The notes under the pieces were generated by a model. The model saw nothing but the letters and a program-made list of their open reading frames with translations, made no database searches and had not been told where the DNA came from. A stretch of 64,000 nt of DNA from Laspinema olomoucense D3b (lineage in GTDB: Bacteria > Cyanobacteriota > Cyanobacteriia > Cyanobacteriales > Laspinemataceae): positions 142,862 to 206,861 of the forward strand of contig NZ_JAMXFA010000008.1 of assembly GCF_025370785.1 (NCBI RefSeq). The letters run 5' to 3'. A program made the position numbers and the translations under genes. Below, piece by piece: positions 14,048 through 54,721 of this stretch; within the stretch, counting starts at the first letter, position 1; every line of letters starts with the position of its first letter.

Positions 14048-15571
14048 ATGACATTACAATTCACTCAAGCAGAATATCGTGTAAGGGAAGATGGAAATTG
14101 GTTGACTCCAAAAGTAGGAGTAATCAGAGAAGGAGATTTAACAGGTCAATGTGGGGTAAGAGTACGCAATATTTCGTCAACTACTATTGAAGGTAGAGCA
14201 ACTAGAAAATCAGATTATGATGTTCCTCATGGCACGGGAACAGGTCAAGATTTGTTGTGGGCCGATGGGGAAGGAGGTGTAAAATTCTGTGATTTTGAAA
14301 TCATTGAAGATTTAATGGTTGAACCAGATGAATTTATTCCTCTGGATTTAATCAATGTATTTGGAACAGAACTAGGCGAGATTACTAGAGCAAGTCTTTG
14401 GATTATTGATGATGATGTGGTACTTCCAACTCATCAATGGATTGGTACTCAACTTCAACTCCAAAATACAAACGGGACTTTTGGTGAACTTGTTGATTTA
14501 AAAGGCCCACAAGGTGACCCAGGTCCACAAGGCGACCCAGGTCCAAAAGGTGATAAAGGTGATATAGGTGAACCCGGGATAGTTGGTCCCGTTGGTCCAC
14601 AAGGTGACCCAGGTCCAATTGGTCCCAAAGGTGATAAAGGTGACCCAGGTCCACAAGGTGAACCCGGTCCAGTTGGTGAAGCCGGTCCTATTGGTCCACA
14701 AGGTCCCATTGGTCCAAAAGGAGATAAAGGAGAAGTTGGTCAACCCGGTCCAGTTGGTCCAGTTGGTCCGGTTGGTCCACAAGGTCAAGCCGGTCCGGTT
14801 GGTGATATTGGTCCTATTGGTCCCAAAGGTGATATTGGTGAACCCGGTCCACAAGGAATTCAAGGTTTAAAAGGTGATACTGGTGAACCCGGTCCAATTG
14901 GTCCACAAGGTCAACCTGGTCCTAAAGGTGATATTGGTCCAGAAGGTCCTGTTGGTCCTGTTGGTCCACAAGGAATTCAAGGTGAACCTGGTCCCGCTGG
15001 TGGTCCAGAAGGTCCACAAGGTCCACAAGGTGAACCCGGTCCCGTTGGTCCTGTTGGTCCAAAAGGAGATAAGGGTGATGTTGGTGCAACTGGCCCACAA
15101 GGAATTCAAGGTTTAACTGGTCCACAAGGTCCACAAGGTCCACAAGGTTTACGAGGTTTAACAGGTGCAACAGGTGCAACAGGTGCAACCGGACCACAAG
15201 GACCACAAGGACCACAAGGACCACAAGGACCACAAGGACCAATTGCTACTGCTGAAGCACCTGTAGGGATAACATTCGCGGCAGGATGGCAGTCGTTGAG
15301 TGGGCATCCTGTTACTTGCCGGAGAATGGGTAAACTTGTCCTATTGCAAGGAATAGCAGAACGAGTGAGTGGTGATAGAACAATATTTGGAACGTTGCCG
15401 GTGGGATATAGACCGAATGTTAATCAAATCAGTTGGCAAGTAGGCTTTGTGAATGGAGGTACTCTTGTCAGAGTAGATGTTAACACAGCAGGACAAATAA
15501 TTGCGGGTATTCCTGCGTCTCCAACAAATAACACAATTTCAATGGCTGGTATCAGTTTCTTTATTACCTAA
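14048..15571 (+). CDS. Collagen-like protein with Calx-beta and fibre-tip domains
   Basis: The product is 507 aa. Residues 1-125 form a Calx-beta-like domain ([13 protein letters not shown] end; [18 protein letters not shown]). Residues about 153-399 are roughly 82 Gly-X-Y triplets ([14 protein letters not shown] type), including charged Lys-Gly-Asp/Glu-Pro-Gly triplets that stabilise a triple helix. A single extra Gly breaks phase in GPAGGPEGP. The last 100 residues ([20 protein letters not shown] onward) look like a phage-tail-fibre or trimerisation head. It would form a trimeric fibre at the surface. No signal peptide is visible. The gene converges on the RuvC-like gene with only 15 bases between stops. 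Confidence 0.9.
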
Positions 15572-15586: not shown

Positions 15587-16048
15587 TCAAAAGAGCGATC
15601 GCCTCTTACAATATTCAGCCATCAATAAAGCATCAGCGCGGTTATGATGTTTTTTGAGATTTAATTGGGGAGCCAGATGAGGAAATAATTGGAGAGCTAC
15701 AGTTCTTGATTCATCTTTTTCTCCTTTTACTCCCATCTGGCGTTTCCATTTTTGGGGTGAAACAAATTCATAAGGAATTTCTAAACCCGCCAATATTCCA
15801 ATCCATATACCGAATGCTGTCCCAAAATTGAATCCACTTACACCCCCTTGTCCTGGCATTGCATGGACTTCTTCTATAATTGCTGTAGAATCCTCCGTAT
15901 ATTGTTTAAGAATTTGATAATATCCAGCAATATCAGGTTTTTTCTTGGTTTTTATTTGAAAAATTGGTGAATCAATTAATTGAATTTTTGAGGAGTTGAT
16001 TATAGCAACCGCTCCTGTGATTCCTGGGTCTATTCCAATAAATTTCAT
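15587..16048 (-). CDS. RuvC-like Holliday-junction endonuclease
   Basis: The product is 153 aa. It has the RNase-H-fold pattern of phage/plasmid RuvC-type resolvases: D7 in FIGIDPGITG, E59/E60 in AIIEEVHAMPGQG, and H135/D139 in HHNRADALLMAEY. FEFVSPQKWKRQMGV-type sequence is also typical of the family. It would cut branched DNA made during recombination, replication or transfer. It is the last gene of a minus-strand operon, and its start overlaps the preceding stop by four bases. Its presence in a membrane/ATPase operon points to DNA processing linked to DNA movement. Confidence 0.88.
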   Translation of the reverse strand: MKFIGIDPGITGAVAIINSSKIQLIDSPIFQIKTKKKPDIAGYYQILKQYTEDSTAIIEEVHAMPGQGGVSGFNFGTAFGIWIGILAGLEIPYEFVSPQKWKRQMGVKGEKDESRTVALQLFPHLAPQLNLKKHHNRADALLMAEYCKRRSLF

Positions 16049-16353
16049 GGTTCTAGTTGTTGATTACGTTGAGGGTGAGTTGGGTGTGATTGTAAATTTT
16101 GTTGATGAATTTGATGAAGTTGTTGTTCAGCAATTAAGGCACGATTTCGCATTTGTTGAGCAATTTTATCTGAAGCAAAAGCGCGTTGATTAGCCCGTTT
16201 AAGTTCCTCACGACATCGAGCATTATTTTCGGATTCAAATTGAGTGCTATTGATAATTATACCAAACAATTCAAACTCAAAGTGAACCCAACCCAAATAA
16301 ACAGCAGCCACGATGAAACCACCAACAAATATTCCAGAAACAAAGTCTTTCAT
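16045..16353 (-). CDS. Small single-pass membrane protein with Gln-rich tail
   Basis: The product is 102 aa. One membrane helix lies at residues 5-22 (VSGIFVGGFIVAAVYLGW), then a charged coiled-coil-like and Gln/His-rich tail. ATGA overlaps on both sides couple it to its neighbours. This single-helix topology, with the bulk on one side, resembles Rz-type or small conjugation accessory proteins, but no motif is diagnostic. Confidence 0.7.
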   Translation of the reverse strand: MKDFVSGIFVGGFIVAAVYLGWVHFEFELFGIIINSTQFESENNARCREELKRANQRAFASDKIAQQMRNRALIAEQQLHQIHQQNLQSHPTHPQRNQQLEP

Positions 16354-17489
16354 CTTTTATAACCTCGGTGTTTTAAGACATTACTGATTGCTTTACGTCG
16401 TCGATTTTGGTCCCAGCCGATACAGCCATTTCTCCAATTTTCAGAACGGTAAGGGTGCATCTTGACGAAATCATGAGCTTGATTGCGAGGGTTAGCGCAA
16501 ATATTGAACAAACCACCAGCGCTTAATAGACCAGTTGATTCATCACGAAAAGATTCAATACGAGTTTGTTGAATCAATTCATCACCTCGTAATCCTTTCT
16601 TATATAAATCACCAGCAACTTTAGGAGCCACATCACTAACTCGGGGACTAGCTTGATTCCAAAGGTCTAAAATATTAAGGAAAAGTTCAAAATTTTGTTC
16701 AGGTGGTAGACCGTGTTTTTCCATTCGGGAAGAAATTAATGGAATGCGAGATTGTGTTCGTTCCAGACAACCTTGATTGGCTTGGTCTAAATTACCGCCT
16801 TTTCCATAATTACTGCACCAACCTTTATTCCACACTCTTCTACCACCAATCAAACTAGGGTCAACATGACCTTTAATCAAGGATGTTTCTTGTCCGGAGA
16901 CAGTCAAGTTTCCTTCAGCGTGACCAATAGCATAAACAGCAATGGAATTCATATCTTTTGCAACATCGGCAATCGCTGGGGGAGTCCGGTAGGTGATGGT
17001 TTCAACGGCAGTAGCAAGAGGACGAACCAGCCCCGTTTCAGCAATTGTTTGGCGAGTGGTGGGATTGATGATGGCGATCGCACCAGCAATCCCAACCGCA
17101 CCATAAAGCAACCAATTCCAGTTAAACTCAGCCTGCTGCGGTAACGGTTGCTGGAGACGTTGCATCAACTGCTGGGCGTACAACTCGCCGACACTGGTGG
17201 CTGAACTGAACGAGTCAGGGGCTATGTTGTCGGAGCGATTGCCTCCATTGCGGAGGCTGCCTGAATGTGACAAGACGGACAATCCCAGACCGATGGCCGT
17301 CAGAGTTCCACCTAAAACAAACCCACTTTGAGTAGCAGCGGCGGTGTCCGGAATGGTTGCGAATTCGCACATCTGCTTGGCTCCAGGTGACAGCAATTGG
17401 CACGGCATTACGTTGATGTGGTGGTTGATTCCTCCAATGGCGATCGCACCTACGCTGGCTCCTATCAAAATCTTGTGGTGAAGTTTCAC
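16350..17489 (-). CDS. Membrane protein with muramidase-like C-terminal domain
   Basis: The product is 379 aa. Two or three membrane segments occur: residues 7-25 (ILIGASVGAIAIGGI), about 54-76 and about 128-145 (LLYGAVGIAGAIAII). The C-terminal half begins with AIGHAEGN ... KGHVDPS and has paired cysteines (CSNYGKGG ... GCLERTQSR; FNICANPR ... NGCIGW). The HAEGN/GHxDP arrangement recalls a cyanobacterial family of probable peptidoglycan-cleaving or lysozyme-like proteins. This is an inference from memory of similar sequences. It is coupled to an M23-type peptidase gene upstream, which supports a cell-wall-opening role. Confidence 0.55.
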   Translation of the reverse strand: MKLHHKILIGASVGAIAIGGINHHINVMPCQLLSPGAKQMCEFATIPDTAAATQSGFVLGGTLTAIGLGLSVLSHSGSLRNGGNRSDNIAPDSFSSATSVGELYAQQLMQRLQQPLPQQAEFNWNWLLYGAVGIAGAIAIINPTTRQTIAETGLVRPLATAVETITYRTPPAIADVAKDMNSIAVYAIGHAEGNLTVSGQETSLIKGHVDPSLIGGRRVWNKGWCSNYGKGGNLDQANQGCLERTQSRIPLISSRMEKHGLPPEQNFELFLNILDLWNQASPRVSDVAPKVAGDLYKKGLRGDELIQQTRIESFRDESTGLLSAGGLFNICANPRNQAHDFVKMHPYRSENWRNGCIGWDQNRRRKAISNVLKHRGYKR

Positions 17490-18370
17490 TTATCGCCTCC
17501 TGTTGCTAAGAAATCGCGATATTCATCAATGAGGGGCTGGGTGAGTTTTCGGTCTGTAATGCGAGCGCCGCGCACGGGAACCCCGTCAATTCCAATGGAA
17601 TATTCATGAATTTGGTTGTGGATGTGAACGCCACTTGTCCGCCCAGTTTTACCCTGGATGCCGATATCCTCTCCTTTGGTAATGCGATCGCCCGGTTGTT
17701 TTGTTGGCGACCCTTTTACCAAATGTCCAAACAGCCAAAGTTTGCCACCGTCACAGGCCACCTCAACAATCTGACCTGCACCAAAACCTGTTGAGAGGTT
17801 TCCTGTCCGACCTTGGAACCATACTCGGCCAATAATTCCATTACAAGGGGAAGGAATAGGGACGGCTGTTGACCCATCGCGTTCGAGGACATAATCATAA
17901 GAACCTGTTGGGGTATCATCGTAAAAATGAGGACCGCGATGTTGTTTCAGTGGCCGGAACGGGACAACTTTTGCTTGAGCAACCGGAGCCGTTGTCTTGT
18001 TGGAGTAGGGGTGAGCATTGGTTACCGTGGTTGCCGTCGTGGTTGCCGGTGAATGAGTCCACTCGTAAAGTTTGAGGGTGCGTTCTGCCATTCGGTTGAG
18101 TCCCGGAATCAGCATGAACGAGAGCAAAATCAAACTGGCGATCGCACAGACAGCCTGACCCCGATTCACTGCTGCTTGATATTGTGCCCTTGCTCGTTCC
18201 TTGTCCGTTGCCTGGGATTCCCAATGAGCAATCCATTGTTGGTTTTCGGCTTCAGTGCGTTCGCGTTGTTCTTGGCTTTGGCGCTGGGTTCGCAGTTCAA
18301 TCCCTTTGAGTTCGCGATATTGAAACTCATCTGGGAGACGTTGCAGTATATCAAGTGAGGTTTGGTTCAT
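17486..18370 (-). CDS. M23-type (LytM-like) peptidase with membrane anchor
   Basis: The product is 294 aa. The start at 18370 (MNQTSLDILQRLP) overlaps the previous stop as ATGA and is preferred over the longer frame. There is an N-terminal charged coiled coil (about residues 20-60) and one membrane helix (AVCAIASLILLSFMLIPGL, about 70-90). A C-terminal M23-like beta domain shows VPIPSPCNGIIGRV, KLWLFGHLVKG and the zinc-binding HIH (H249, H251). The first HxxxD pair is less clear (possibly HFYDD). M23 enzymes cut peptidoglycan cross-links. In this operon it would open the wall for a transfer channel. Confidence 0.78.
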   Translation of the reverse strand: MNQTSLDILQRLPDEFQYRELKGIELRTQRQSQEQRERTEAENQQWIAHWESQATDKERARAQYQAAVNRGQAVCAIASLILLSFMLIPGLNRMAERTLKLYEWTHSPATTTATTVTNAHPYSNKTTAPVAQAKVVPFRPLKQHRGPHFYDDTPTGSYDYVLERDGSTAVPIPSPCNGIIGRVWFQGRTGNLSTGFGAGQIVEVACDGGKLWLFGHLVKGSPTKQPGDRITKGEDIGIQGKTGRTSGVHIHNQIHEYSIGIDGVPVRGARITDRKLTQPLIDEYRDFLATGGDK

Positions 18371-18669
18371 ATTGGTTGACATTGACCGGCATAGGTTTCG
18401 ACCACTGTGCAGTTGGCTCGTTGTGGTGGGGGTTGAGTGGGTTTGTTCGGTGCGGCTGAAGGGGTGGCAGTTTGAGTCCGAATGGCGGGAATAGAAGGAA
18501 TTGGGAGTGAGTTTGGAATTTTCGGAATACTGGTTTGGGCGGATTGTTTCCAACTTGGGATGAGTGCAAATTGACCAATTCCTGGTTTAGCCAGGTCTAG
18601 CCCGAACAGAATCAGCATGAGCAAAACAAGCAAACCTTGTATTCTAGGAATGATTATGAATTGCTTCAT
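18367..18669 (-). CDS. Small protein with N-terminal membrane helix and Pro-rich tail
   Basis: The product is 100 aa from the ATG at 18669, coupled to both neighbours through ATGA overlaps. Residues 6-30 form a membrane helix or uncleaved signal (IPRIQGLLVLLMLILFGLDLA). The remainder is Pro/Thr/Ser-rich with two cysteines (CTVVETYAGQCQPI) at the C-terminus. This is like small periplasmic or lipoprotein components of secretion/conjugation systems, but no lipobox is present. Confidence 0.65.
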   Translation of the reverse strand: MKQFIIIPRIQGLLVLLMLILFGLDLAKPGIGQFALIPSWKQSAQTSIPKIPNSLPIPSIPAIRTQTATPSAAPNKPTQPPPQRANCTVVETYAGQCQPI

Positions 18670-19124
18670 TTTTCTGTATCTTCTTGGTCGTAACAAAATT
18701 TGATAAGAGCGATTCCTGCGCCCAATGTTGTTCCTGCCTCTTTAACATCTGATATTTCACCTCCTTTGATTGTCAGAAATAATAAAATGGTTCCTCCGGC
18801 GATGGCTAATAAATATCCTGATGCTTTAATTAATTGAAAAATTGGAAGTTCTGCCCATTTTATTTGAGTTTGCTGGTCAATAGTTTGAATGTTAATATCT
18901 GAAGGCGAAGAATCCTCAATTAAATTATTGAGAGATACGAGAATTTGAATTTTATCTTCTGTATCTATTTCATTCCAACAAGAAATGGGATTTGTTTGTA
19001 AATATTCACGAGCTTTAATTTCGATTTCTTTTTTTTGAAGGGCAGTCAGTCTAGCTTGTAAAGCTGCACCTTTCAAAGGATTGCCATTTTTATCAGTTAA
19101 GTTTTGAATTGGATTTGAGTTCAT
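18666..19124 (-). CDS. Small membrane protein, 152 aa
   Basis: The start is at 19124 because AGGAGA precedes it at good spacing. It begins MNSNPIQNLTDKNGNPLKGA. A helical soluble part follows, with one or two membrane segments in the last third (IKASGYLLAIAGGTILLFLTI; TTLGAGIALIKF). No family is recognised. Coupled to the downstream gene by ATGA overlap, it is part of the 12-gene operon. Confidence 0.68.
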   Translation of the reverse strand: MNSNPIQNLTDKNGNPLKGAALQARLTALQKKEIEIKAREYLQTNPISCWNEIDTEDKIQILVSLNNLIEDSSPSDINIQTIDQQTQIKWAELPIFQLIKASGYLLAIAGGTILLFLTIKGGEISDVKEAGTTLGAGIALIKFCYDQEDTEK

Positions 19125-19192
19125 GATAATTTCTCCTAGTAAGGAACAACAAGCGAACAATTTGAGATAACCGTCGCTTGTTGTAGTTAGAA

Positions 19193-19768
19193 TTATTGAC
19201 CTTGATAGCGTTGTAAATTGGTTTGAACAACGATGTTACGACTACGGTCTAAAGGAATTGGTTGAGCATTTTGACCAGCAAATTGTTGTTGAGATTGATT
19301 AACAAGCTGGGTTCGGTAAGCCCCATCAAATTCTTCAACCAAAGGACTACCTAAGTTAGTAACCAATTTGAGTCCTCGTACTGTTGCATTAGATGCTTTG
19401 GCAGATGCTGGGGCATTATGTGGTAAAGGTTTATCACTAGCCACTCCTGAAACAACACCTTGACAAGCATTGAAAACAGCAAGTGCAATAACATAGAGAC
19501 CAATACCCATTGCCCAATACCCAATAGTTTTGAAAGGGTGTTTAGGATTTGAGTATTTTAGAGTAGTTCCTACCGTATCAGTAATAGTTTGTACGGCTTG
19601 AGTAGCACCATTTGTTATAGCATCAGGTGCACCTTTCAAACGGGATGAGGCACTATGACCTGCACGGTCAAGAGCTTCAAGAGCATCTTCAGTTATTTTT
19701 CTAGCTTTTTTCAATTGATTTTGAGCATCTTGTAAACCTTGTGATTCTGCTTCTGGATAAGAATTCAT
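19193..19768 (-). CDS. Single-pass membrane protein with amphipathic N-terminus
   Basis: The product is 191 aa with ribosome binding site GGGAGAAAG. It has an N-terminal helical region (LQDAQNQLKKARKITEDALEAL) and an Ala/Thr-rich stretch. One membrane helix (TIGYWAMGIGLYVIALAVFNAC) lies near residues 82-105, followed by a polar Gln/Asn-rich C-terminus. No family is recognised. Its position between the ATPase and the smaller membrane proteins suggests a channel or scaffold component. Confidence 0.68.
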   Translation of the reverse strand: MNSYPEAESQGLQDAQNQLKKARKITEDALEALDRAGHSASSRLKGAPDAITNGATQAVQTITDTVGTTLKYSNPKHPFKTIGYWAMGIGLYVIALAVFNACQGVVSGVASDKPLPHNAPASAKASNATVRGLKLVTNLGSPLVEEFDGAYRTQLVNQSQQQFAGQNAQPIPLDRSRNIVVQTNLQRYQGQ

Positions 19769-19890
19769 GACTTTCTCCCTGTAGAGGATTATGAGAAGGA
19801 TAGATTATATGAGAAGGATACTCAGAATTGTCTGATAGGAGGAGGTCTACTAAATTGAATAAATTGTTGAGTTTTCATTGTCTTCATTAT

Positions 19891-21561
19891 TTATTCTTCA
19901 TTAGTCCGGAATCTTTCAACAAATTGATTAAATTCAATAGATAAATCTATTGGGGAATCTACTGGTAAATCTCCGGGTGAATCTACTGGAGTTGAACTAG
20001 CTCGTTGCATTATTTCGAGATGTTCAGGTGTTATATTCAGGGGTTTACAGGGTGAATCATCTAGTGAATCATTGATTGGTTGTGAATCATCAGGATGGAA
20101 AATCAATTGTTCTTGAATGTTGGATAAATCTGGAGCATAGGACATTTGATTTCGGGAACTAAAGAAAAATATGGGATGATAGGGATGAGCTTCACCCATA
20201 GTATTTAGTTGGTGAAAGAGCTTGAGTCGTTGATTTTTATCGGAAAGTGACCGATTGATTGATTGGCGACAAAGTTCAATGGATTTTGGATTAAATGCTC
20301 GACCAATTGCAAAAGTTGTCAGTTGGGCTGAAACTGAGACATCAAAACCCAACTGTTTGACAAATGGAGATTGAGCAATAATCCAAAGAAAGATATTATC
20401 TTCTAACCCAACAAAAGCCAAACTTTCAGCAAGTTGGATAATTGTTCTTTGGGCTTTCGGGTCACAATCTTTGGCAGCCTTCAATAATGTCGGCCATTCG
20501 TCTAAAATGACGACGTAAGGGGTTGGATTATAAGGTTGACGAGTTTGCCGAGCTTTTTGTCTGATTCGTTTCCTGTTAGTTTGTTCAGACATGGCTCGTC
20601 TGAGGAGAGTGATAGTATTCATAATTCCCTGGTAAGGGTTATCGAGTTCAACACTAACAATCACTGGAAACCCATCTGGATGAGATAATCTTTCCAACCC
20701 TAAAAACACACTACCTTTTGGGTCAACTCCGTTCCAAATCACATCAGGACAAACTTGAACGACTTCTCGAATCATTCCGCACAGTGTACTTGTTTTGCCC
20801 GACTGGGTTGTGGCGGGAATTAATAGATGTCCTTTGATTTTGTTCAGGTTTAGTCCTGAACCATAAAGTGCTGCTTCTTTCAGCAGATTAGGTTCTTTGG
20901 AGGGTTTTTTGGTTGGTTTGCTTGGGGCATATCCTGATAAAACAATGGGTGAGATTTCATCAACTTCATCAGATACATCAACTTCATCAGGTACATCATC
21001 GTTATTTTCATCAAATGAATAGTAATCAGGTTTAGAAATATGAGATGTTTCAGTCAGATAATCAGTTGATTCAGTCAAATCAATTTCAGAAACATCAGAA
21101 GAAACATCAGCACCAGACCTCCATATATCAAATTCAATATCCTCTTTTGAATGAGTAGGAAGATGAACAGGGGGACGAGTAAGGGGACGAGTAAAGGGTT
21201 GAGTAGAGGGACGAGTAGAGGGTTGAGTTTGGGGTTGAGTAGAGGGTTGAGTACGATGTGATTGAGAGGAAGATGATGTTTTTTGCTTATCAAATGTTTT
21301 TTGCTTATCAGATATTTTTTGCTTATCACCTAAAGAAAGGAAGGTAGCAGCAGCAGTTCCACCGAGAGCGATCGCCATTCCACCCCATTGCAAAATCCTT
21401 CGTGCAGTATCAGGAACCCCAAATGAGACTTCCTGGGTTTGATTATTGTAGGCGTTGGTCAAAACTGGGACTGGCCCAGTCGATTCAAAGCTCGTTGCAA
21501 ACATCCAACTGCCTATAATCAAACTAACCGGAGCCATTGCCAACCATTTCAAATTCATCAT
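19891..21561 (-). CDS. Membrane-anchored FtsK/TraG-type DNA-pumping ATPase
   Basis: The product is 556 aa. There are two N-terminal membrane helices (about residues 5-25 and 58-75), then a Ser/Thr/Gln/Pro-rich linker with TQPSTRP-like repeats and an acidic stretch. The P-loop ATPase follows: PATTQSGKTS (K256) as Walker A with the first Gly replaced, NGVDPKG as the strand after it, and VVILDEW (D354, E355) as Walker B. This layout matches coupling proteins and FtsK/HerA-type DNA motors, including single-motor transfer systems. No relaxase or VirB4 homologue is seen nearby. The gene is coupled to the upstream membrane protein. Confidence 0.8.
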   Translation of the reverse strand: MMNLKWLAMAPVSLIIGSWMFATSFESTGPVPVLTNAYNNQTQEVSFGVPDTARRILQWGGMAIALGGTAAATFLSLGDKQKISDKQKTFDKQKTSSSSQSHRTQPSTQPQTQPSTRPSTQPFTRPLTRPPVHLPTHSKEDIEFDIWRSGADVSSDVSEIDLTESTDYLTETSHISKPDYYSFDENNDDVPDEVDVSDEVDEISPIVLSGYAPSKPTKKPSKEPNLLKEAALYGSGLNLNKIKGHLLIPATTQSGKTSTLCGMIREVVQVCPDVIWNGVDPKGSVFLGLERLSHPDGFPVIVSVELDNPYQGIMNTITLLRRAMSEQTNRKRIRQKARQTRQPYNPTPYVVILDEWPTLLKAAKDCDPKAQRTIIQLAESLAFVGLEDNIFLWIIAQSPFVKQLGFDVSVSAQLTTFAIGRAFNPKSIELCRQSINRSLSDKNQRLKLFHQLNTMGEAHPYHPIFFFSSRNQMSYAPDLSNIQEQLIFHPDDSQPINDSLDDSPCKPLNITPEHLEIMQRASSTPVDSPGDLPVDSPIDLSIEFNQFVERFRTNEE

Positions 21562-22517
21562 AATCCTCCCGGAAATGGATTGTAGTAGTCTGTTTCTTGA
21601 GAATTTTCTTGAGAATTTTCTTGCAATTGTTCAGTAAGACTTGGAACCACCTCACGACCATACATATCTTGTTGTTCAAGTTGATTGGCTACTTGGTCTA
21701 AACCTTGCAGTCTGAGTAAGGAAATAACCGAGTTTTTAATGTCTTGTTGTCCGTTTATCAGGTCAAGGGCGACTGCTATTGAATCAGACTGAGGAATATT
21801 AGAATTTCTCGAACTGTTGATTACCAGTAATTGAACAATTCCAATTACTTGGGTCATGTGGGGAGAAAGTTTTTCATAGAAAACTTTTTGTTGAGTTTCC
21901 CCATTTTCATCTAAAATTGGTTTCCCTGATGAATCAGTTTTGACAGCCCCTGAGTCTTTCCAGACTAAGGTTGAAGATTCACCACCAGCAGCCAGAGCAA
22001 TTTTTTTAACAGCAGTAGTTATGCTATTATTCCGAATCGTTTCTGGATGCAGACCATAGTTTGGGTCATTGCGATCGCCCCGAACTTGTTGGACTCTTGC
22101 ATTGAATGCTATTGCCTCGTTATTCATAACCATTTGCATCAACCCCATTTCTGTGGGATTGTTTGGATTTAGGTCGAATTGAGTTATTTTCGAGGCTTCG
22201 GTCAGTTGTTTATTTTGTAGTTGGTTTTGAGCTTGGGTACGGATGGCATTGAGACAAGCAATGGATGTTGCATCACAATTTCTTGCATCAATTTCAGCAA
22301 CATTAGTAGGAGATGGTACTAACTGAGCTTGAGATTGAACAACAGCAATTGCTCCCAAAAACAAACTAGATAGTGCTATTGCCAATGTTGTCATGACATA
22401 TTTATTAAGCAAAATATTCAAGAAACTGGGTTTTAGGTCAGTAACTATCCAATTTTTCCAATTAGATTCCGGAGTTAGGGAATCATCAAAATAAGTTTCA
22501 ATTCCGGCGACTGTCAT
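21558..22517 (-). CDS. Membrane protein with long extracytoplasmic domain
   Basis: The product is 319 aa from the ATG at 22517 (AGAGG ribosome binding site). A cytosolic segment of about 40 residues is followed by one membrane helix (YVMTTLAIALSSLFLGAIAVV) and an Ala-Gln site that may be cleaved. A large polar domain follows, with a C-terminal Gln/Glu-rich tail. The topology recalls VirB8/TraE-like pieces or a tape/adaptor for the ATPase that follows (4-bp overlap), but no motif is diagnostic. Confidence 0.65.
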   Translation of the reverse strand: MTVAGIETYFDDSLTPESNWKNWIVTDLKPSFLNILLNKYVMTTLAIALSSLFLGAIAVVQSQAQLVPSPTNVAEIDARNCDATSIACLNAIRTQAQNQLQNKQLTEASKITQFDLNPNNPTEMGLMQMVMNNEAIAFNARVQQVRGDRNDPNYGLHPETIRNNSITTAVKKIALAAGGESSTLVWKDSGAVKTDSSGKPILDENGETQQKVFYEKLSPHMTQVIGIVQLLVINSSRNSNIPQSDSIAVALDLINGQQDIKNSVISLLRLQGLDQVANQLEQQDMYGREVVPSLTEQLQENSQENSQETDYYNPFPGGL

Positions 22518-22543
22518 AATTACCTCTGGTTGAATGAGTGGGA

Positions 22544-22795
22544 TTAATAGTGAACAATATTGGAGGCTTCTTCGTACCATTGAGGATTCAAAGTATCGGA
22601 CTGAAACAAATATTCAATCAAAGGAACAACAAAAGCCCCAACTACTAAACCTCCTACTACCATTGCTGGACTAAATGCTACTGCCATCGTTCCATAAGCA
22701 ATACATCCTGTAATAGCTCCAACTAGACTTGACCAAGTTACTCCAATTGCTAGATGTCTGGCACGATTTTTGAGAGTTTTCAGCAATGATTTCAT
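22544..22795 (-). CDS. Small multi-pass membrane protein (VirB2/3-like size)
   Basis: The product is 83 aa from the ATG at 22795, coupled by ATGA to the preceding gene. A basic N-terminus (MKSLLKTLKNRARH) is followed by two membrane helices (LVGAITGCIAYGTMAVAF; MVVGGLVVGAFVVPLIEYLF). Size and topology resemble pilin/VirB3-type subunits of transfer machines, but sequence similarity is not evident. Confidence 0.62.
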   Translation of the reverse strand: MKSLLKTLKNRARHLAIGVTWSSLVGAITGCIAYGTMAVAFSPAMVVGGLVVGAFVVPLIEYLFQSDTLNPQWYEEASNIVHY

Positions 22796-23118
22796 CGAAT
22801 TTTTCTGATTTGTGTAATTGAGTATTTGATGAAACTGATTGAGGCGATCGCCCCTAAACAAAGACCTAAGATTCCCCCTTGGATTAATTGATTAGGTAAT
22901 TGAGTTGGTTTAATAGCTACAGCAATTGTGGTTGTGGTTGCCACCGACAAGCTATTAATTCCGATAGAGGCGATTGCACACCAACCAGATAATTCTAATT
23001 TTGTTTGTGTTTTGACTTCTGATTGGATAGCGGATTGATGAATATAAGTTTCAATCCAATCAGCCACTTCAGAATTTAATTGGAACTCTCTGGTAAGGCA
23101 TTCGTTGATTTTTGACAA
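22792..23118 (-). CDS. Small membrane protein, TTG start, overlapping upstream gene
   Basis: The product is 108 aa. The TTG start at 23118 is preferred because GAGGGG sits about 6 bases upstream. This makes it overlap the upstream gene by 43 bases. A soluble helical N-terminus is followed by two membrane helices (LSGWCAIASIGINSLSVATT; LIQGGILGLCLGAIASISFI). Like its downstream neighbour it could be a structural subunit of a membrane complex. Confidence 0.6.
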   Translation of the reverse strand: MSKINECLTREFQLNSEVADWIETYIHQSAIQSEVKTQTKLELSGWCAIASIGINSLSVATTTTIAVAIKPTQLPNQLIQGGILGLCLGAIASISFIKYSITQIRKIR

Positions 23119-23837
23119 AGCCGACCCCTCATAAATGCCGACAATTCCATGACTTCGACTTCTTGACCATCTGGATTGGCTTGTAATGCGTTCATGAAGT
23201 CCTCCGCTTCCCTTTTTTTTAACTCTTCAAAGACTTGTTTAGTTCGAGGGTCAGTAAATGGATTAATTTTTCGAGTCTTTTGCATTAAATCCTGAGCAGC
23301 TACCAGAGCTATGATTGGAGCCATTGCTTCATTTTGTTGAGCCAAATGTTCAAGTAATGACCCATAAGTATCTAAGGCTTGTGAAGGAGAACTTTTGACT
23401 GATAATTTTGAAGCGGATTGTAATTGGTTGTAAACATCCTCCTTTTTATCGTCTACATCATCATTTTCTACAGAATTTCCTAATTCATCGTCCATTGCTT
23501 CAGAATCAGAATTGTTTAATGGTTCAGAATTAGCTGGAGGCAAAGAATTGGATTGAGTAGATTGAGCTTCTTGATTTGATTTAATTTGATTGGCTAAGTC
23601 AATAATTGAGACTAATGTATTGGTTTCCTGACTAAGTTTTCCAGCCAAATCCACAAATTGTCTAGCTGTCTGAACTGCATCTAGTTCACCTTCTTCAGTT
23701 TGAAGACTGCCGGTCACCGTAGTTTTGCCTTTATTTTTGGAAAGAGAGAAGCCTAAGATTGTGAAAAATTCAATGAGGTCACCTTCAATCACCTTAACTG
23801 ATTCGGCTAATTCTGAGAGCAAGATTACTTTATCCAT
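23076..23837 (-). CDS. Soluble acidic hypothetical protein
   Basis: The product is 253 aa, preceded by GGAG. There is an N-terminal helical domain, a disordered acidic centre (SEPLNNSDSEAMDDELGN), and a helical C-terminal half. No membrane segment is found. It may be a cytosolic adaptor or DNA-binding part of the operon. No family is recognised. Confidence 0.6.
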   Translation of the reverse strand: MDKVILLSELAESVKVIEGDLIEFFTILGFSLSKNKGKTTVTGSLQTEEGELDAVQTARQFVDLAGKLSQETNTLVSIIDLANQIKSNQEAQSTQSNSLPPANSEPLNNSDSEAMDDELGNSVENDDVDDKKEDVYNQLQSASKLSVKSSPSQALDTYGSLLEHLAQQNEAMAPIIALVAAQDLMQKTRKINPFTDPRTKQVFEELKKREAEDFMNALQANPDGQEVEVMELSAFMRGRLCQKSTNALPESSN

Positions 23838-23843
23838 GATTGA

Positions 23844-24446
23844 TTAATCTCCTGATTGTTGAGTTGAGGTTTTTTGATTGAGATAAGCAGAGCAATAAAC
23901 GAGCACAGCAGAAACTGGTAGAGATTCCAGGAAATCCGAATTTTGAGTTTCGACCAGATATTCAGGAAATGAGACTCTGTAGACATCTTGAAAATATTCA
24001 ATTAATCTGCCTTCTGGTGGAAAAGAAAGATAATCCTCCCAAAGTTTTAGGAATTCTCTCCTAGTGATACGGGGATTTTGCATTCTTGAAGCTACCCATC
24101 CACAGTCCATTTTGATTATTTGGTTAGCTGTGAATGCCCCTCGTCCTGATGCCGGTACACCCATCGCTCGTCTGAAATCCACCAATGAATTGTAGGTGGC
24201 TCTGTATCTACTTTTGCAAGCCTGTACTCCCCATAAAATATTTGAGTTATATGCTTGCGGATTTATCTTTTTTCCCCATAATATCCACTCTTTTTCTTCC
24301 TCATTTTTTACCTGTGTTGTTCCCGAGGTCGTTTCTGAGGTCGTTTCCGAGGTTGATGTTTGGGGATAAATTGGTTGAGTATTGATTACTGATTTGTCTT
24401 GATTAAGAATCAAGGCTTCTGTGGGTGCTACTTTGATTGCATACAT
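23844..24446 (-). CDS. Hypothetical protein, first gene of the transfer-like operon
   Basis: The product is 200 aa. A Thr/Ser/Glu-rich segment (TSETTSETTSGTTQ) precedes a compact basic domain. This has RYRATYNSLVDFRRAMGVPA and MQNPRITRREFLKLWEDYL, which could be a winged-helix or SAM-like DNA-binding fold. It begins the 12-gene minus-strand run ending at the RuvC-like gene. The roughly 400 bases upstream presumably hold its promoter. Confidence 0.58.
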   Translation of the reverse strand: MYAIKVAPTEALILNQDKSVINTQPIYPQTSTSETTSETTSGTTQVKNEEEKEWILWGKKINPQAYNSNILWGVQACKSRYRATYNSLVDFRRAMGVPASGRGAFTANQIIKMDCGWVASRMQNPRITRREFLKLWEDYLSFPPEGRLIEYFQDVYRVSFPEYLVETQNSDFLESLPVSAVLVYCSAYLNQKTSTQQSGD

Positions 24447-27554: not shown

Positions 27555-29381
27555 CTACCCCATGAACACCGCTGACTCCGATTGCAAGACCGACTCAGCA
27601 AACTGGGCGATCGCAGCCCAACCGCGATAGAACAACCCATAAGGGCTGCGATAACCCTTCTCTGTCCAACCGGGAAGGCACTGTTTCGAGGCAGCAGCGG
27701 CAAAAGTTTCGGAAATAGAATCTAGGCCCCTATCGCCCAACATACCCTCCAAACGCAAATCTTCCGCGCAGATATGCCAGGTGGCACCGGCATCGGTTTG
27801 AATGTTCACAAAATTTACGGAATCGGGTTCAGTTGTTACGGTGACAAATTCCCCGGTGGCTGGATGTTCCGGTTTGACGACCAAGACCCGATCGCCTTCG
27901 TTGACGGGAGAAGCGGGGATGGGGTGAGCCATTTGCGCCAGGAGCGATTTATAAGTTTCAACCTGGGGATTTTGTGCGGGGGTGGTTGGTTGTTGGGAGT
28001 TTTGTGTTTGTTCGGCTAATTCGGCTTCTAAGGCCATGACTTTGGCGACCAAAGTTGAATTATCGCTGTACTTCATATTTTGTTTGGATGCCGCCATCTC
28101 TGAAGCTAAGGCGTCGTAACGTTGCTGGGTTTGGTCAAGTTGACTTAGCAGTTGTTGATTCTGCTGTCTTAACTGCTCCAGGACTGCATCAGACCGGGTG
28201 GCTTCGACTTGAGCTAATTGTTGTTGGAGTAGGTGAATCTCTAAATCTTTCTGGGCATTTTCCTGGATAAGTCCTTGGAGTTCTTGGTTTTCTTGTTCGA
28301 GGCGATCGCGCTGGGCTTGGAGTGCATGAATCAGGGCAGTTGCTTTGTCCGCTTCTTTAAGTTGCGCCGACAGGTCCCGGACTTGCCGTTCCAGTTGCGC
28401 CACTCGGTCTGGAGATTTGGGGACGGCTGGAGCGAGTTTTTGTTGGGCTAAGGCTTGTTGGAGATGATGATGCTTGGCTACGGCCTTGCCAGAGTTTCCT
28501 GCTTCAGCTTGGGCCAAATTCTGGACACAGGCGCGAAATTCTTGGGAAGCTGTGGGGTCGAGTCCCAACCCGCGCTCTATCCATTTGAGTTGCGCTTCCG
28601 GAACCACTTCATCAGAGGAAGCGCAGTTGGCAAGGAAGGCGCTAATCGCCGGGTTAGTTTTGCGTTTGTGTTGGGATTTGATGAGTTTGGAGATGTTCCA
28701 GTCGGTCAGGGTTTGGACCGCTTCAACCAAATGGTCGGTGAGGACCACCGGCTCGGCGGCATTCGGTTGGGACATTTGAGCTAGACGTAATGCCTCCGCT
28801 TGCAGGGTCGCGAGACTTTCCTCATCCATCTCGCAGGAGGCATAGGAGATTAAACGCCAATCGGCAAGGGTGGCGGGCTGCCCTAAAGTAATCGTTTTCC
28901 GGGTCTGACGGATGCTGGCGACGGTTTGTTTGCCCGATTTGAGCAATTTTACGAGCAGGTGCTCATCGCTGATTTTGGTGAGTTCTTTGACAGCGCTGAT
29001 GGACCAGGATTGGACCGAGTTGAGGATGAGCTTCTGGATGCGCTGACGTTGGCCGTCAAACCATTCTGAAATCTGGATGAGCGACCGGGCCATCCAAGTC
29101 GAACCCCCGAAGTCGGAGGATTCTAGCCACTCGTCAAACAGTTGAGCCCCTTCGGTCGAACCATTCTCTTCGCAAAGTTCTTGGAGGATTTGACGGAAAC
29201 TGCGCCCAATCTCAAGGCCGGTAACGAATGTGTGTTGAACAAAACTGAAAAATTGCTGTAAGGTCTCCAGGGCTTCGGTTTGGAGTTCCTGGGAGCCGAA
29301 AGTGCTGTAATCGTAATCTAAACGGAGGTTTAGCAGAACTGGGCTAAACGGTTTAGCTGTAGATGCTTGTAGGGTATTCAT
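27555..29381 (-). CDS. Long coiled-coil protein, cyanobacterial type
   Basis: The product is 608 aa. The N-terminal helical domain (QQFFSFVQHTFVTGLEIGRS) resembles DUF3102-like phage/plasmid proteins. An extended Gln/Glu-rich coiled coil spans about residues 310-460 (LERQVRDLSAQLKEADKA; LRQQNQQLLSQLDQTQQRYD). A small beta domain (GDRVLVVKPEHPATGEFVTV) and a C-terminal segment (GLDSISETFAAAASKQCLPG) follow. Base composition is clearly higher in G+C than the genes to its left. Function is unknown; perhaps nucleoid or replication associated. Confidence 0.62.
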   Translation of the reverse strand: MNTLQASTAKPFSPVLLNLRLDYDYSTFGSQELQTEALETLQQFFSFVQHTFVTGLEIGRSFRQILQELCEENGSTEGAQLFDEWLESSDFGGSTWMARSLIQISEWFDGQRQRIQKLILNSVQSWSISAVKELTKISDEHLLVKLLKSGKQTVASIRQTRKTITLGQPATLADWRLISYASCEMDEESLATLQAEALRLAQMSQPNAAEPVVLTDHLVEAVQTLTDWNISKLIKSQHKRKTNPAISAFLANCASSDEVVPEAQLKWIERGLGLDPTASQEFRACVQNLAQAEAGNSGKAVAKHHHLQQALAQQKLAPAVPKSPDRVAQLERQVRDLSAQLKEADKATALIHALQAQRDRLEQENQELQGLIQENAQKDLEIHLLQQQLAQVEATRSDAVLEQLRQQNQQLLSQLDQTQQRYDALASEMAASKQNMKYSDNSTLVAKVMALEAELAEQTQNSQQPTTPAQNPQVETYKSLLAQMAHPIPASPVNEGDRVLVVKPEHPATGEFVTVTTEPDSVNFVNIQTDAGATWHICAEDLRLEGMLGDRGLDSISETFAAAASKQCLPGWTEKGYRSPYGLFYRGWAAIAQFAESVLQSESAVFMG

Positions 29382-31598: not shown

Positions 31599-31638
31599 GT
31601 AATAGAATGAGATTGTTCTCCCTGGAGGCTGAATTTTG

Positions 31639-34600
31639 ATGAGTCATGCTACGGCGATCGCTGCTATTCCTGAACCGGGACAGCTTGTAGAAGTTCGAGG
31701 CCGCCGGTTTGCAGTGACTGATGTTCGCGCCTCTACCCTCCCCTATGATGCCTTGCGATCGCAACCTCACAAACCGCAGCATCTGGTTAGTCTCTCTTCG
31801 GTGGAGGATGATGCTCTCGGCGAAGAGTTGCAAGTGATTTGGGAGTTGGAACCCGGGGCGATCGTCTATGAGAAAATGGAGTTGCCTTATCCCAGTGGGT
31901 TCGATACTCCGGAACGATTGGCGGCATTTTTAGATGCGGTGCGCTGGGGGGCCTCTTCTACGGCAGATTTGCGATCGGTGCAGTCTCCGTTTAGAAGTGG
32001 GATTGATATTGAAGATTACCAACTCGATCCAGTGGTCCGGGCAATTCAAATGCCTCGGGTCAATTTATTGATTGCTGATGATGTGGGTTTGGGGAAAACC
32101 ATTGAGGCGGGGTTGGTGGCGCAGGAGTTGATTTTGCGTCAGCGATCGCGCCGAATTTTAATTGTCTGTCCCTCTTCCTTGCAGGTGCAGTGGCAGGAAC
32201 AAATGCGGGATAAATTTGGGTTGGATTTCCGCATTGTCAACAGCGATTTGATGCGAGATTTGCGCCGGAATCGCGGATTGCACGTTAATCCCTGGCAGCA
32301 TTTTCCTCGATTGATTACTTCGATTGATTTTCTCAAGCGCGATCGCCCCTTGCGGTTGATGCGAGAAGCGTTACCGGCAGAAGGGGAATCGGTTTATCCC
32401 CGCCGGTTTGATTTATTAATTGTGGATGAAGCGCACAATATTGCCCCTTCTGGTGGGGGTCGCTATGCGGTAGATTCCCAACGAACTGCTGCGATTCGGT
32501 TATTAGTGCCGCATTTCGAGCATAAATTATTCCTCACGGCGACGCCTCATAATGGGTATTTAGAAAGTTTTACCGCCTTGTTGGAGTTACTCGATTCCCA
32601 ACGTTTTGCCCGGGGGATTATTCCCGATCGCAATCAATTGCAGGTGGTTATGGTACGCCGGTTAAAGCGAGAACTGCCCCCGCGTTGGGATGGGACGCCA
32701 CGTTTTGCCCAACGGCAATTGGCAGCGATTCCCGTGGACTATTCGCCAGAAGAAAAGCGCGCCAATGAGTTATTAAATAATTATACCACATGGCGGCGCA
32801 AAGATGCTACAGATAAAATGGAATTGTATGCCACAGAATTTGTTTTAAAGTTATTGAAAAAGCGGCTATTTTCTTGCCCTGCTGCTTTTTTAAGTACCTT
32901 GGAAAAGCATCAAATTTCCTTGGAAGAAGCGAAGCGTAAAAGCAGTCGGACGATTGGAAAACCGAATGCGGGAATTTTGCGGCGGCAGTTGGAAGAAATA
33001 GAGGAAGATTTTGCTGATGATGATTTATATGAAGAATCTACCGACGATGCGATCGCCACAACTTCCCGGTTATTTCGAGAGTTGACTCCTCGGGAACGCC
33101 ACGCCCTTGATGAACTCAAAACTTGGGCGGAAAGCGCCTCTCGTCGTCCCGACTCGAAGGCGCGGGAATTGTTGAATTGGATTGAGACTCATATCAAACC
33201 GGGGGGCAAGTGGTCAACGGAACGGGTAATTATTTTCACGGAATATCGGGCAACTCAGAAATGGTTGTATGATTTATTGGCGGGACAGGGATTAGCAGAA
33301 GGCGATCGCCTGATGACCTTGTATGGGGGAATGAATTCGGAAGACCGCGAACGGATTAAAGCGGCATTTCAGGCAGGGGCCGATGTCTCAGATGTGCGGA
33401 TTTTATTGGCAACGGATGCCGCATCTGAAGGGTTGGATTTGCAGAATCATTGTTCTAATTTAATTCACTATGAAATTCCCTGGAATCCCAACCGCATGGA
33501 ACAGCGGAATGGACGAATCGATCGCCACGGACAGAAAGCGCCCCAGGTGATGATTTATCATTTTGTCGGCAAAAGCTATCAAGAACAAGCAACCACAGGC
33601 ATTCGTCCGGGGGATTTGGAAGGGGATTTAGAATTTTTGATGCGGGCGGCATTGAAAATCAACAATATTCGGGAAGATTTAGGGAAAGTCGGTCCGGTTA
33701 TTGCCCAACAAGTAGAGGAAGCAATGTTGGGTCGCCGGGTGAGTTTAGATACGACTGTTGCTGAAAAAAGCTCAGAACCCGTTCGCCAAATGTTGAAATT
33801 TGAGCGAAAAGTGCGGGACCAAATTGAGAAATTAAAAGAGCAATTTGAGGAAACTCGCAGCAATTTAAGACTGACTCCGGACAATATTGAGGCGGTGGTC
33901 AAGATTGGGTTAGAAATTGCCCAGCAACCGCCTTTAATTCCCGTTCGTAGGGACTCCTTTAGGAGTCATACCCAAGATATAACCCCTGAAGGGGGGACGT
34001 TGAACCTTTATTATTTGCCTGCATTGAGTGGAAGTTGGGCCAGTTGTAGTACAGGGTTGGCCCATCCCCATACCGGAGAAATTCGGCCTATTGCCTTCGA
34101 TCCAGATGTGACGCGGGGACGGGATAATGTGGTATTGGTGCATCTGAATCATCGCTTGGTTCAGATGTGTTTACGACTGTTGAGGGCGGAAGTTTGGTCC
34201 CGAGAAAGTAATAAGAATTTACATCGGGTGACCGTTGAAGTGCTGCCCTCCAATTCTAGTGAATTTCCCGTGGTAGTTGCTTATGGGCGGTTAGTCATTT
34301 TAGGGGGAGATTCTCAACGGTTGCATGAAGAAATGCTTGTTGCTGGGGGAGTGATTAAGCAAGGCAAGTTTGAAAAATTGGGGGTGGTGAAACTCCAGGA
34401 GTTGATAGCATCGGCGAAAGCAGAACCAGTTCCGGAGACGATGAGTCAAAAATTAGTGGAACTTTGGCCGAATTATGCCGAATCCTTGTTAAAACATTTG
34501 GAAAACCGAATGCGCGATCGCACGGCATCTTTAGAAAAATCATTGCAGGAGCGGTGTGATCAAGAAGTTGCCGATATCAGGGCTATTCTCACGGAGTTAA

Positions 34601-34842
34601 AAACCAGTATTGAACAAGAGTTAGCAGAACCGGAGTTTATGCAATTAGAACTGACGCTAGGTTTAAGCGACACCGAACGCACGCAATTTGACCGGGATAT
34701 CAATAGTCTGAAGGCGCGATTAGCGGAGATCCCCAAAGAAATCGAACGGGAAACCGCTGCAGTTCGCCAACGATTTGCACAACCTAGTCCCCGATTATTT
34801 CCTCTGGCGATTACCTATTTGGTTCCGAAGCGCTTAATCTAA
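31639..34842 (+). CDS. drmD: DISARM SNF2-like helicase DrmD
   Basis: The product is 1067 aa with the ATG at 31639 after TGGAGG. It is an SNF2-type superfamily 2 helicase: VGLGKTIEAG (K153) Walker A, VDEAH (263-266) Walker B, FLTATPHNGY motif III, and C-terminal helicase motifs RVIIFTEYRATQKW, LATDAASEGLDLQ and WNPNRMEQRNGRIDRHGQ. It matches the class 1 DISARM helicase, which moves on DNA to help restrict phage. One palindromic element (33943-34005) is inserted in frame and adds a SDSFRSH-like peptide. A close parallel is RapA-like ATPases, but the downstream drm genes decide the call. Confidence 0.93.
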   Translation: MSHATAIAAIPEPGQLVEVRGRRFAVTDVRASTLPYDALRSQPHKPQHLVSLSSVEDDALGEELQVIWELEPGAIVYEKMELPYPSGFDTPERLAAFLDAVRWGASSTADLRSVQSPFRSGIDIEDYQLDPVVRAIQMPRVNLLIADDVGLGKTIEAGLVAQELILRQRSRRILIVCPSSLQVQWQEQMRDKFGLDFRIVNSDLMRDLRRNRGLHVNPWQHFPRLITSIDFLKRDRPLRLMREALPAEGESVYPRRFDLLIVDEAHNIAPSGGGRYAVDSQRTAAIRLLVPHFEHKLFLTATPHNGYLESFTALLELLDSQRFARGIIPDRNQLQVVMVRRLKRELPPRWDGTPRFAQRQLAAIPVDYSPEEKRANELLNNYTTWRRKDATDKMELYATEFVLKLLKKRLFSCPAAFLSTLEKHQISLEEAKRKSSRTIGKPNAGILRRQLEEIEEDFADDDLYEESTDDAIATTSRLFRELTPRERHALDELKTWAESASRRPDSKARELLNWIETHIKPGGKWSTERVIIFTEYRATQKWLYDLLAGQGLAEGDRLMTLYGGMNSEDRERIKAAFQAGADVSDVRILLATDAASEGLDLQNHCSNLIHYEIPWNPNRMEQRNGRIDRHGQKAPQVMIYHFVGKSYQEQATTGIRPGDLEGDLEFLMRAALKINNIREDLGKVGPVIAQQVEEAMLGRRVSLDTTVAEKSSEPVRQMLKFERKVRDQIEKLKEQFEETRSNLRLTPDNIEAVVKIGLEIAQQPPLIPVRRDSFRSHTQDITPEGGTLNLYYLPALSGSWASCSTGLAHPHTGEIRPIAFDPDVTRGRDNVVLVHLNHRLVQMCLRLLRAEVWSRESNKNLHRVTVEVLPSNSSEFPVVVAYGRLVILGGDSQRLHEEMLVAGGVIKQGKFEKLGVVKLQELIASAKAEPVPETMSQKLVELWPNYAESLLKHLENRMRDRTASLEKSLQERCDQEVADIRAILTELKTSIEQELAEPEFMQLELTLGLSDTERTQFDRDINSLKARLAEIPKEIERETAAVRQRFAQPSPRLFPLAITYLVPKRLI
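33943..34005 (+). repeat. In-frame palindromic element copy 1 (in drmD)
   Basis: GTTCGTAGGGACTCCTTTAG-type repeat with GGAGT and CCCCT arms. It adds about 21 codons to drmD without disrupting the frame (RRDSFRSH ... TPEGGTLN). Confidence 0.9.
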
Positions 34843-34844
34843 CC

Positions 34845-34906
34845 GTTTGTAGTAACCCCTTTAGGGGTTGCACCATCTTATGACTCCTAAAGGAGTCACT
34901 ACAAAC
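34845..34906. repeat. Palindromic element copy 2 (between drmD and the antisense gene)
   Basis: Same family, with both CCCCTTTAGGGG and GACTCCTAAAGGAGTC stems. It provides the last codons (LCL) and the stop codon of the minus-strand gene at 34899. Confidence 0.9.
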
Positions 34907-35168
34907 AAAGAGTTCGTCCGCCGAAGTGACGGACATAGCCCGAACCGATTCGTACAATCCAGATTTGAGCATCAGGATGAGTGGATTCAAGCCGATCGCA
35001 AGCGGCAATTTCACTCTTATCGACTTCAAAATCTCCCGTTTCTAAATCGATCGCCACAATCTTGCCCTCATTACCTTCCTCTACTTGTGGGCGAACCTTA
35101 TATTCATAAATCTCATCCCCAAGGCGGGCGAATTCCTCTTTACTGTAGCGGGGTTGTCTAATGGTCAT
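34899..35168 (-). CDS. Conserved cyanobacterial small protein, antisense within DISARM
   Basis: The product is 89 aa with a ribosome binding site AGGAAAG. The sequence RYSKEEFARLGDEIYEYKVRP ... GKIVAIDLETGDFEVD ... CDRLESTHPDAQIWIVRIG is that of a widespread cyanobacterial family often found next to toxin-like or unknown small genes. The family's function is not established; it has a short beta-rich core after a helix. It is transcribed against drmD and drmMI and its C-terminus has been changed by a palindromic element. Confidence 0.75.
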   Translation of the reverse strand: MTIRQPRYSKEEFARLGDEIYEYKVRPQVEEGNEGKIVAIDLETGDFEVDKSEIAACDRLESTHPDAQIWIVRIGSGYVRHFGGRTLCL

Positions 35169-39606: not shown

Positions 39607-39643
39607 GAGTACATTTCAAAATCCAAGATAGGAGATGATTGCT

Positions 39644-41212: not shown

Positions 41213-41222
41213 GCAGCTAATT

Positions 41223-54719: not shown

Positions 54720-54721
54720 CC

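Follow-up and report, generated by a model that had tools for sequence, protein, structure and literature searches.

A thirteen-gene operon with a predicted DNA motor and two predicted wall enzymes

Does a tightly packed operon in the cyanobacterium Laspinema encode a machine that moves DNA between cells? Under the current model 374 of 424 cyanobacterial plasmids (88%) are likely immobile, and an unknown conjugation mechanism has earlier been proposed for these bacteria, as noted in the same source (PMC8600333). The operon lies in a stretch of 64,000 nucleotides (the window), which forms the end of a contig of 206,861 bp (C98) in a 7.0-Mb cyanobacterial assembly (G000); here G labels a genome, C a contig, L a stretch of DNA examined and A an alignment or profile. 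The nearest named relatives of G000 are Laspinema, the matched records assigning a G003 contig to L. palackyanum D2a and a G007 contig to Laspinema sp. D2d. We consider it likely, with a probability of roughly 55%, that the operon encodes a single-motor machine, which would pump DNA of the element that carries it, be it plasmid or island, through the cell envelope and into an adjacent cell, because it joins a predicted FtsK-type motor to two predicted wall-cutting enzymes and because related operons reside on plasmids classed as non-mobile.

The operon consists of 13 minus-strand genes (15587-24446), neighbours either overlapping or being separated by short gaps. A sequence-only reading of this DNA had described the tight packing correctly but counted twelve genes; it noted at least six small membrane proteins, and we count seven membrane proteins beyond the motor and the two wall enzymes. 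The genes, with lengths in amino acids (aa), are:

23844..24446, minus strand: g1, 200 aa, soluble; first gene, in the position of a small helix-turn-helix (HTH)-like protein in related operons
23076..23837, minus strand: g2, 253 aa, soluble; by position, a soluble protein stands at the same place in related operons
22792..23118, minus strand: g3, 108 aa, small membrane protein by hydropathy; kept in all five sister operons
22544..22861, minus strand: g4, 105 aa, small membrane protein with two segments; weak match in L163 (3.9e-5)
21558..22580, minus strand: g5, 340 aa, one or two membrane segments and a predicted periplasmic domain
19891..21561, minus strand: g6, 556 aa, motor ATPase of the FtsK/TcpA type; hydrophobic hairpin at the N-terminus; Walker A (TQSGKT) and Walker B (ILDEW) motifs
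19193..19768, minus strand: g7, 191 aa, membrane protein after the motor; counterparts, by eye, in L048, L049, L084, L086, L094 and L163
18666..19160, minus strand: g8, 164 aa, membrane protein; no match in the sister operon of G006
18367..18696, minus strand: g9, 109 aa, membrane protein with a Cys pair close to the C-terminus
17486..18370, minus strand: g10, 294 aa, membrane-anchored M23 peptidase (Pfam M23, 3.3e-8; HxxxD and HxH motifs)
16350..17489, minus strand: g11, 379 aa, predicted membrane-anchored lysozyme-like muramidase; likely catalytic Glu192 (AEG)
16045..16353, minus strand: g12, 102 aa, small membrane protein
15587..16048, minus strand: g13, 153 aa, RuvC-like resolvase (phrog_1770, 2.3e-35)

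The motor and its kin

Taken alone, g6 is weakly FtsK-like (Pfam, 0.017, below cut-off; SXT_TraD, 0.0045). A profile of ten diverse motor relatives (A8), searched against PDB chains, has as its best match an EccC-type FtsK (4nh0; 3e-15) and also matches TcpA of pCW3 (1.1e-5, profile positions 158-341) and an FtsK chain (1.2e-5); weaker matches are confined to the P-loop stretch (PilT-type, 3.8e-5; DotB, 1.3e-4; VirB11, 0.0015; HerA, 0.0018). The P-loop with its Walker A and B motifs, seen in alignment A1, and profile similarity place the motor in the FtsK/SpoIIIE/HerA superfamily, and the A8 match makes it a TcpA-like motor in the sense of the Tcp system of pCW3. Among its relatives, FtsK_SpoIIIE exceeds the Pfam cut-off in L087 and DUF87 (HerA) does so in L147; one relative bears the public name 'type IV secretory system conjugative DNA transfer family protein'. 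By profile the motor is a member of the FtsK/SpoIIIE/TcpA group, which supports the DNA motor of the sequence-only reading, its membrane anchor being predicted; the concern that the ATPase might be unrelated to FtsK falls away, since A8 matches FtsK-type chains.

For a second motor subtype, described by profile A9, a PDB search gave nothing at E<=0.1. What ties it to the first are its place in the operon, the hairpin and profile matches with motors of the first subtype (8.8e-12 and 1.1e-10). Nine of the 11 motors checked, that of the window included, have among their top hydrophobic peaks one near residues 3-30 and one near residues 51-80; several of these score under the usual cut-off, L087 has none and in L092 the spacing differs. 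Pfam scans of the motors revealed no C-terminal winged helix of the FtsK-gamma type. Longer C-terminal tails are present in L087, L092 and L147, the last without an informative PDB match. One apparent motor relative, a Verrucomicrobiaceae protein (6.6e-7), was set aside as a chance match covering 5% of its length only.

That EccC is the best match, together with the many small membrane proteins, would fit a protein-secretion apparatus related to the ESX/type VII secretion system (T7SS) and driven by an EccC-like motor. EccC has several ATPase domains and works alongside other Ecc proteins, whereas g6 has a single motor domain and neither extra ATPase domains nor other Ecc proteins are seen in the operon; no WXG100 substrate scored above chance (g7, E 0.12), and genes of this kind lie on a small replicon with replication genes. 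Protein secretion is thus very unlikely to be the function.

Predicted wall enzymes exchanged among families

The M23 peptidase claimed for the operon holds up by its Pfam score and motifs. A Foldseek search with g11 gave nothing at E<=0.001; we tentatively assign it to the lysozymes because of a second look, of Glu192 and of the exchange of this gene for Pfam-confirmed glycosidases in other operons. When the muramidase profiles A3 and A6 were run against PDB sequences, nothing useful emerged. From sequence and models, g10 and g11 are both predicted to cut the wall.

Comparable enzymes of several kinds occur in related operons. M23 is found in L050, L085, L090, L095, L051 and L168 (weakly in L147: 6.3e-4, below cut-off), and the glycosidases include Phage_lysozyme in L050 (1.7e-39), Glucosaminidase in L090 (2.8e-11), a phage-type lysozyme in L163 (match to PDB 1am7, 1.3e-21) and members of the lysozyme-like family of g11. 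Wall enzymes are exchanged among unrelated families (M23, phage-type lysozymes, glucosaminidase, lysozyme-like family) across operons, as if wall opening itself were under selection. At the position of g10, five operons (L048, L049, L084, L086, L094) have a non-M23 version with the motif H-x(n)-S-x-x-C...R, which by eye only resembles L,D-transpeptidases; that of L084 has no Pfam match, and the profile of this version no useful PDB match. The muramidase family is too widespread in cyanobacteria (164 of 388 genomes) to serve as a marker for the system, and of 20 contexts chosen by muramidase score only L127 had a motor-profile match (0.0021).

Related operons on plasmids and on a recently spread island

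Five sister operons are found in Laspinema: on G003 C52 (near-identical), G000 C80, G003 C107, G007 C24 and G006 C17. All five have g3, g4, g7, g9 and g12, and four have g8 (C17 being the exception); g5, g6, g10 and g11 were detected by profile in C24 and C17, and aligned or read in C80 and C107. Minus the resolvase, the operon is found again in other families of cyanobacteria, its gene order conserved. Among the more distant relatives, the full set, with the motor and at least one of the two wall enzymes, was read in L048, L049, L050, L051, L084, L085, L086, L090, L094, L095, L147 and L163, and L168 combines the motor with M23. Motor profile matches were obtained in six of 386 genomes of the phylum for A1 (E<=0.001), in 36 of 388 genomes of the order for A2, the weaker ones likely being generic ATPases, and in 31 of 368 genomes of the class for A9. 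By eye, TnsB- and TnsC-like genes stand upstream of the full operon in L090 (540-3666).

Of the other proteins, g1 has no family match above cut-off, and its counterparts show MerR_1-like matches below it (L147, E 0.014; L087, 3.5e-4); by sequence, g1 and g2 are matched only in the near-identical G003 C52 copy. We regard g1 as a likely candidate for a DNA-binding adaptor. In most related operons the gene just ahead of the motor is a g5 counterpart, and the g5 profile finds L163 (3.2e-12), L090 (5.6e-19) and L094 (9.4e-64), none of which was used in building it. In the family scans that each was given to, g3, g4, g5, g7, g8 and g9 had no match above cut-off; a Peptidase_M48 match of g12 (21.1 bits, cut-off 20.3) was taken as chance.

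Several of these operons reside on plasmids. Contig C87 of G000 (L147) is circular (14,574 bp, with a 77-bp terminal overlap), and the operon fills over a third of it; the rest includes genes for a tyrosine (Tyr) integrase, for an HTH protein and for a primase/helicase-like protein of 1,017 aa. A DNA search of plasmids with C87 found none. Full operons are also present on plasmid p2 of Calothrix sp. PCC 7716 and on plasmid1 of Leptolyngbya boryana. L087 is a circle of ~9,966 bp (582-bp overlap) that encodes a motor, an HTH protein, a Tyr recombinase and small proteins; no wall enzyme was recognised on it. Thirteen plasmid records, ten of them from Planktothrix, carry motors of the L092 type. 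All 18 distinct plasmid records matched are typed as non-mobilizable; five of the 18 came from the muramidase query, and of the three of these that were read two have the full operon. The third, Nostoc pC052_F (L096; 7812-9600 and 10627-12120), has overlapping genes for M23 and a muramidase that come after those for small membrane proteins, a nearby gene annotated as a helicase that matches the motor profile only weakly (4.3e-4) and, upstream, a ParM-like gene.

In the window the operon is part of an island shared with G003. To the left of the window, two blocks of 19.6 and 22.2 kb (about 42 kb) are 99.0-99.5% identical to G003; the stretch with the operon is 96.1% identical over 32.3 kb (97.6% for the operon alone), and sequence just outside the island falls to 82-90%. 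Because the 96.1-99.5% identity of the island exceeds that of a chromosomal yardstick (89-93%; one segment of 9.6 kb), the comparison points to recent spread between species. No tRNA gene that could mark an insertion site was found in the 12 stretches scanned. In the island, ~3.3 to 0.5 kb left of the window start (L021), type IV pilin-like, ComF-like and phospholipase-D-like nuclease genes stand in a row (by eye).

If the motor instead pumped plasmid or chromosome copies through a closing septum that the wall enzymes remodel, the system would serve inheritance rather than transfer. The kinship with FtsK/SpoIIIE fits such a role, as do ParM- or ParA-like genes seen by eye beside motors in L088, L166, L168 and L178. 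The latter cut both ways, however: Par-like genes already stand beside such motors. Moreover, a peptidase, a glycosidase and many membrane proteins are more than FtsK needs, and the island has spread recently across species. A role in segregation is accordingly rather improbable.

Comparison with known transfer systems and phage modules

The sequence-only reading had recognised no VirB4, and the VirB4 N-domain (PF03135; Pfam profile only) is indeed without a match in all four Laspinema genomes, the positive control (one genome) being matched. TrwC likewise has no match in the four genomes, with its positive control matched; Mob_Pre matched nothing anywhere, its positive control being silent too. 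The earlier statement that no relaxase is recognisable holds for the operon but not for the genome: PF03432 relaxases occur in all four Laspinema genomes, and in G000 there are two, found only on C59 (L153) and C73 (L154). Six stretches around such relaxases (parts of contigs) contain no match to the motor, g5, M23 or muramidase profiles, and the two relaxases of G000 may borrow another export machine. One of these two lies beside ParM/ParA-like genes (by eye), in a genome without a VirB4 match.

Like the operon studied here, the MPF_C type IV secretion system (T4SS) with its MOBV relaxase is linked to cyanobacterial plasmids; it transfers DNA, as the operon would. On pCC7120alpha it rests on a relaxase, VirB4 and VirD4 (PMC8600333), whereas VirB4 goes unmatched in the four Laspinema genomes. 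No membrane protein of the operon matched a VirB protein in family scans, in which VirB6/8/9/10-like parts were sought by sequence only.

The Tcp system of pCW3 shares with the operon an FtsK-like coupling motor. It includes a wall hydrolase, a winged-HTH protein that binds oriT (TcpK) and VirB4/VirB6/VirB8-like parts, TcpF being VirB4-like; no VirB4-, VirB6- or VirB8-like part was recognised in the cyanobacterial operon, and TcpF, sought via PF03135, had no match in the genome (among Tcp sequences, only TcpA chains were compared). The pCW3 relaxase, TcpM, is of the tyrosine-recombinase type. Tcp-like conjugation, in which a TcpA-type motor couples to a relaxase of this type or to one acting in trans, and a single strand is nicked and moved, would draw on the TcpA match, on Tyr recombinases that share a replicon or contig with motors (L147, L087, L092, L174) and on the two PF03432 relaxases. 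Tyr recombinases, however, are also ordinary plasmid resolvases and integrases, the six relaxase stretches are devoid of motor, M23 and muramidase matches, and VirB4 is not matched; we hold this possibility to be unlikely.

A phage or phage-plasmid module, with a packaging ATPase and lysis enzymes, is suggested by the C87 motor (L147, 3073-4320), which matches a terminase large subunit family (phrog_2666, 6.1e-9), by M23 proteins, whose matches include phage families, part of them with the labels lysis, tail or minor head, and by a terminase-like gene (by eye) on the motor contig L052. Yet virion-type matches in the PHROGs scan are limited to phrog_2666 on the motor and to M23-domain matches to such families: beyond these, none of ten operon proteins (all but g4, g9 and g12) or ten C87 proteins is a capsid, portal or tail protein. 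The motor, furthermore, bears a hydrophobic hairpin, and phage and viral collections contain no credible motor relative (one marginal match, E 0.04, in a PhoH-like gene), nor do viral contigs contain motors of the C87 or A9 type. This origin is therefore most improbable. The searches, for VirB4 as for phage motors, indicate that the operon is not accounted for by an established T4SS or phage module; such an account would have been the second of two findings against the sequence-only reading. The single-motor DNA-transfer apparatus proposed there is partly supported: it stands as regards the motor group, the plasmid or mobile-element setting and this lack of a T4SS or phage explanation, while double-stranded DNA, a clt-like site and transfer itself are conjectural.

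A close parallel by description is TraB with the Spd proteins of Streptomyces plasmids: an FtsK-type membrane motor with neither relaxase nor T4SS alongside, small membrane proteins in the operon and multicellular hosts (PMC12857230, PMC3158045). TraB is described as acting without other T4SS subunits, accompanied by small Spd membrane proteins, and the likeness of TcpA to FtsK has prompted the suggestion of double-stranded transfer (PMC12857230); FtsK-based systems of Actinobacteria are reported to transfer double-stranded DNA within multicellular assemblages (PMC3158045). The cyanobacterial operon differs in its diderm host, its two predicted wall hydrolases and its separate candidate DNA-binding gene. 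TraB reads 8-bp repeats with a C-terminal winged helix of the FtsK-gamma type, and Pfam scans reported no such domain in the motors scanned; the likeness to TraB is one of description. The word cyanobacteria does not occur in the main text of PMC12857230. Literature searches for a cyanobacterial counterpart turned up nothing like the operon, in agreement with the earlier claim that it is undescribed in this phylum.

A proposed mechanism

In the transfer mechanism that we propose, g1 would bind a cis site on the element and dock it to g6, likely a hexamer that the N-terminal hairpin anchors in the inner membrane, while g3, g4, g5, g7, g8, g9 and g12 would form the conduit. The anchored M23 peptidase g10 is predicted to cut cross-links, and the muramidase-like g11 glycan strands, to leave a gap in the peptidoglycan through which g6 would then drive the DNA. 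That DNA would probably be in double-stranded form, given that the motor falls with FtsK/TcpA and that the operon has no relaxase beside it. The RuvC-like g13 would be accessory to the machine. Plasmids with a motor and membrane proteins only may be mobilised by cells holding the full set. At 1683-4221 in L088, within a few kb of such a motor, a TolC-like gene (OEP, 0.0087, below cut-off) and an HlyD-like gene (by eye, no Pfam match) mark a possible outer-membrane exit.

Two findings weigh against DNA transfer by such a machine. The AlphaFold model of the motor is unusable (predicted local distance difference test score, pLDDT, 39.7). In addition, no wall enzyme was recognised at 18 of 20 sampled distant motor loci (one per genome matched by A9, usually the best match, G000 and G136 excluded), a count to be read with nine of the 20 stretches being shorter than 12 kb and with profiles that cover only some wall enzymes; the two with an enzyme are L163 and L168. 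As a control, none of the profiles matched anywhere in 320 kb of Laspinema DNA (16 stretches). Motors likewise lack a recognised wall enzyme in their stretch in L052, L087, L088, L092 and L093. From the counts at motor loci it follows that motor modules exist in a full form and in a motor-only form.

The operon is a concrete candidate for the unknown conjugation mechanism of cyanobacteria. If it does transfer DNA, it would explain how plasmids classed as non-mobile spread, and would take FtsK-type plasmid transfer beyond Actinobacteria, into a phylum of diderm phototrophs. Spread along filaments is a question raised by the named hosts, presumably all filamentous, and the 14.6-kb plasmid, with the operon and genes for replication and recombination, offers a small testable system. 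A broader proposal, tentative and open to considerable doubt, is that filamentous cyanobacteria own a class of conjugation machine that arose apart from type IV secretion, with an FtsK-type motor and interchangeable wall cutters moving double-stranded plasmids down to 14.6 kb, and that many 'immobile' plasmids are self-transmissible.

Accessory and neighbouring genes

The sequence-only reading counted a Holliday-junction resolvase among the components. RuvC-like g13 is present, but judged by its distribution it is accessory and outside the conserved machine, because three of the five Laspinema sister operons are without it (no match in the C107, C24 and C17 loci); it is found only in the window element and in the near-identical G003 copy, and contig C80 ends before its place. 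Other features of the window are:

14048..15571: 507-aa collagen-repeat protein (Pfam Collagen, 2.7e-38), adjoining the 3' end of the operon
27555..29381, minus strand: coiled-coil protein, 608 aa, operon-linked in all five other Laspinema copies
31636..49290: DISARM defence system (DrmD, DrmMI, DrmA, DrmB, DrmC), which we take to be class 1, with an IetA-like ATPase gene inside
49757..57952: pPIWI-RE defence module of three genes (PprRE, PprDinG, pPIWI_RE protein), adjoining DISARM

The 608-aa coiled-coil protein is 59-95% identical across the Laspinema copies and 43% identical over 143 aa in L094, and a stretch of it also adjoins the operon of the Calothrix plasmid; it is possibly an accessory part. 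Right of 29437 the cargo of the island differs: DISARM and pPIWI-RE lie there in the window, and a type I restriction system with transposases in G003 (by eye; L022-L023, G003 C52 1-32522).

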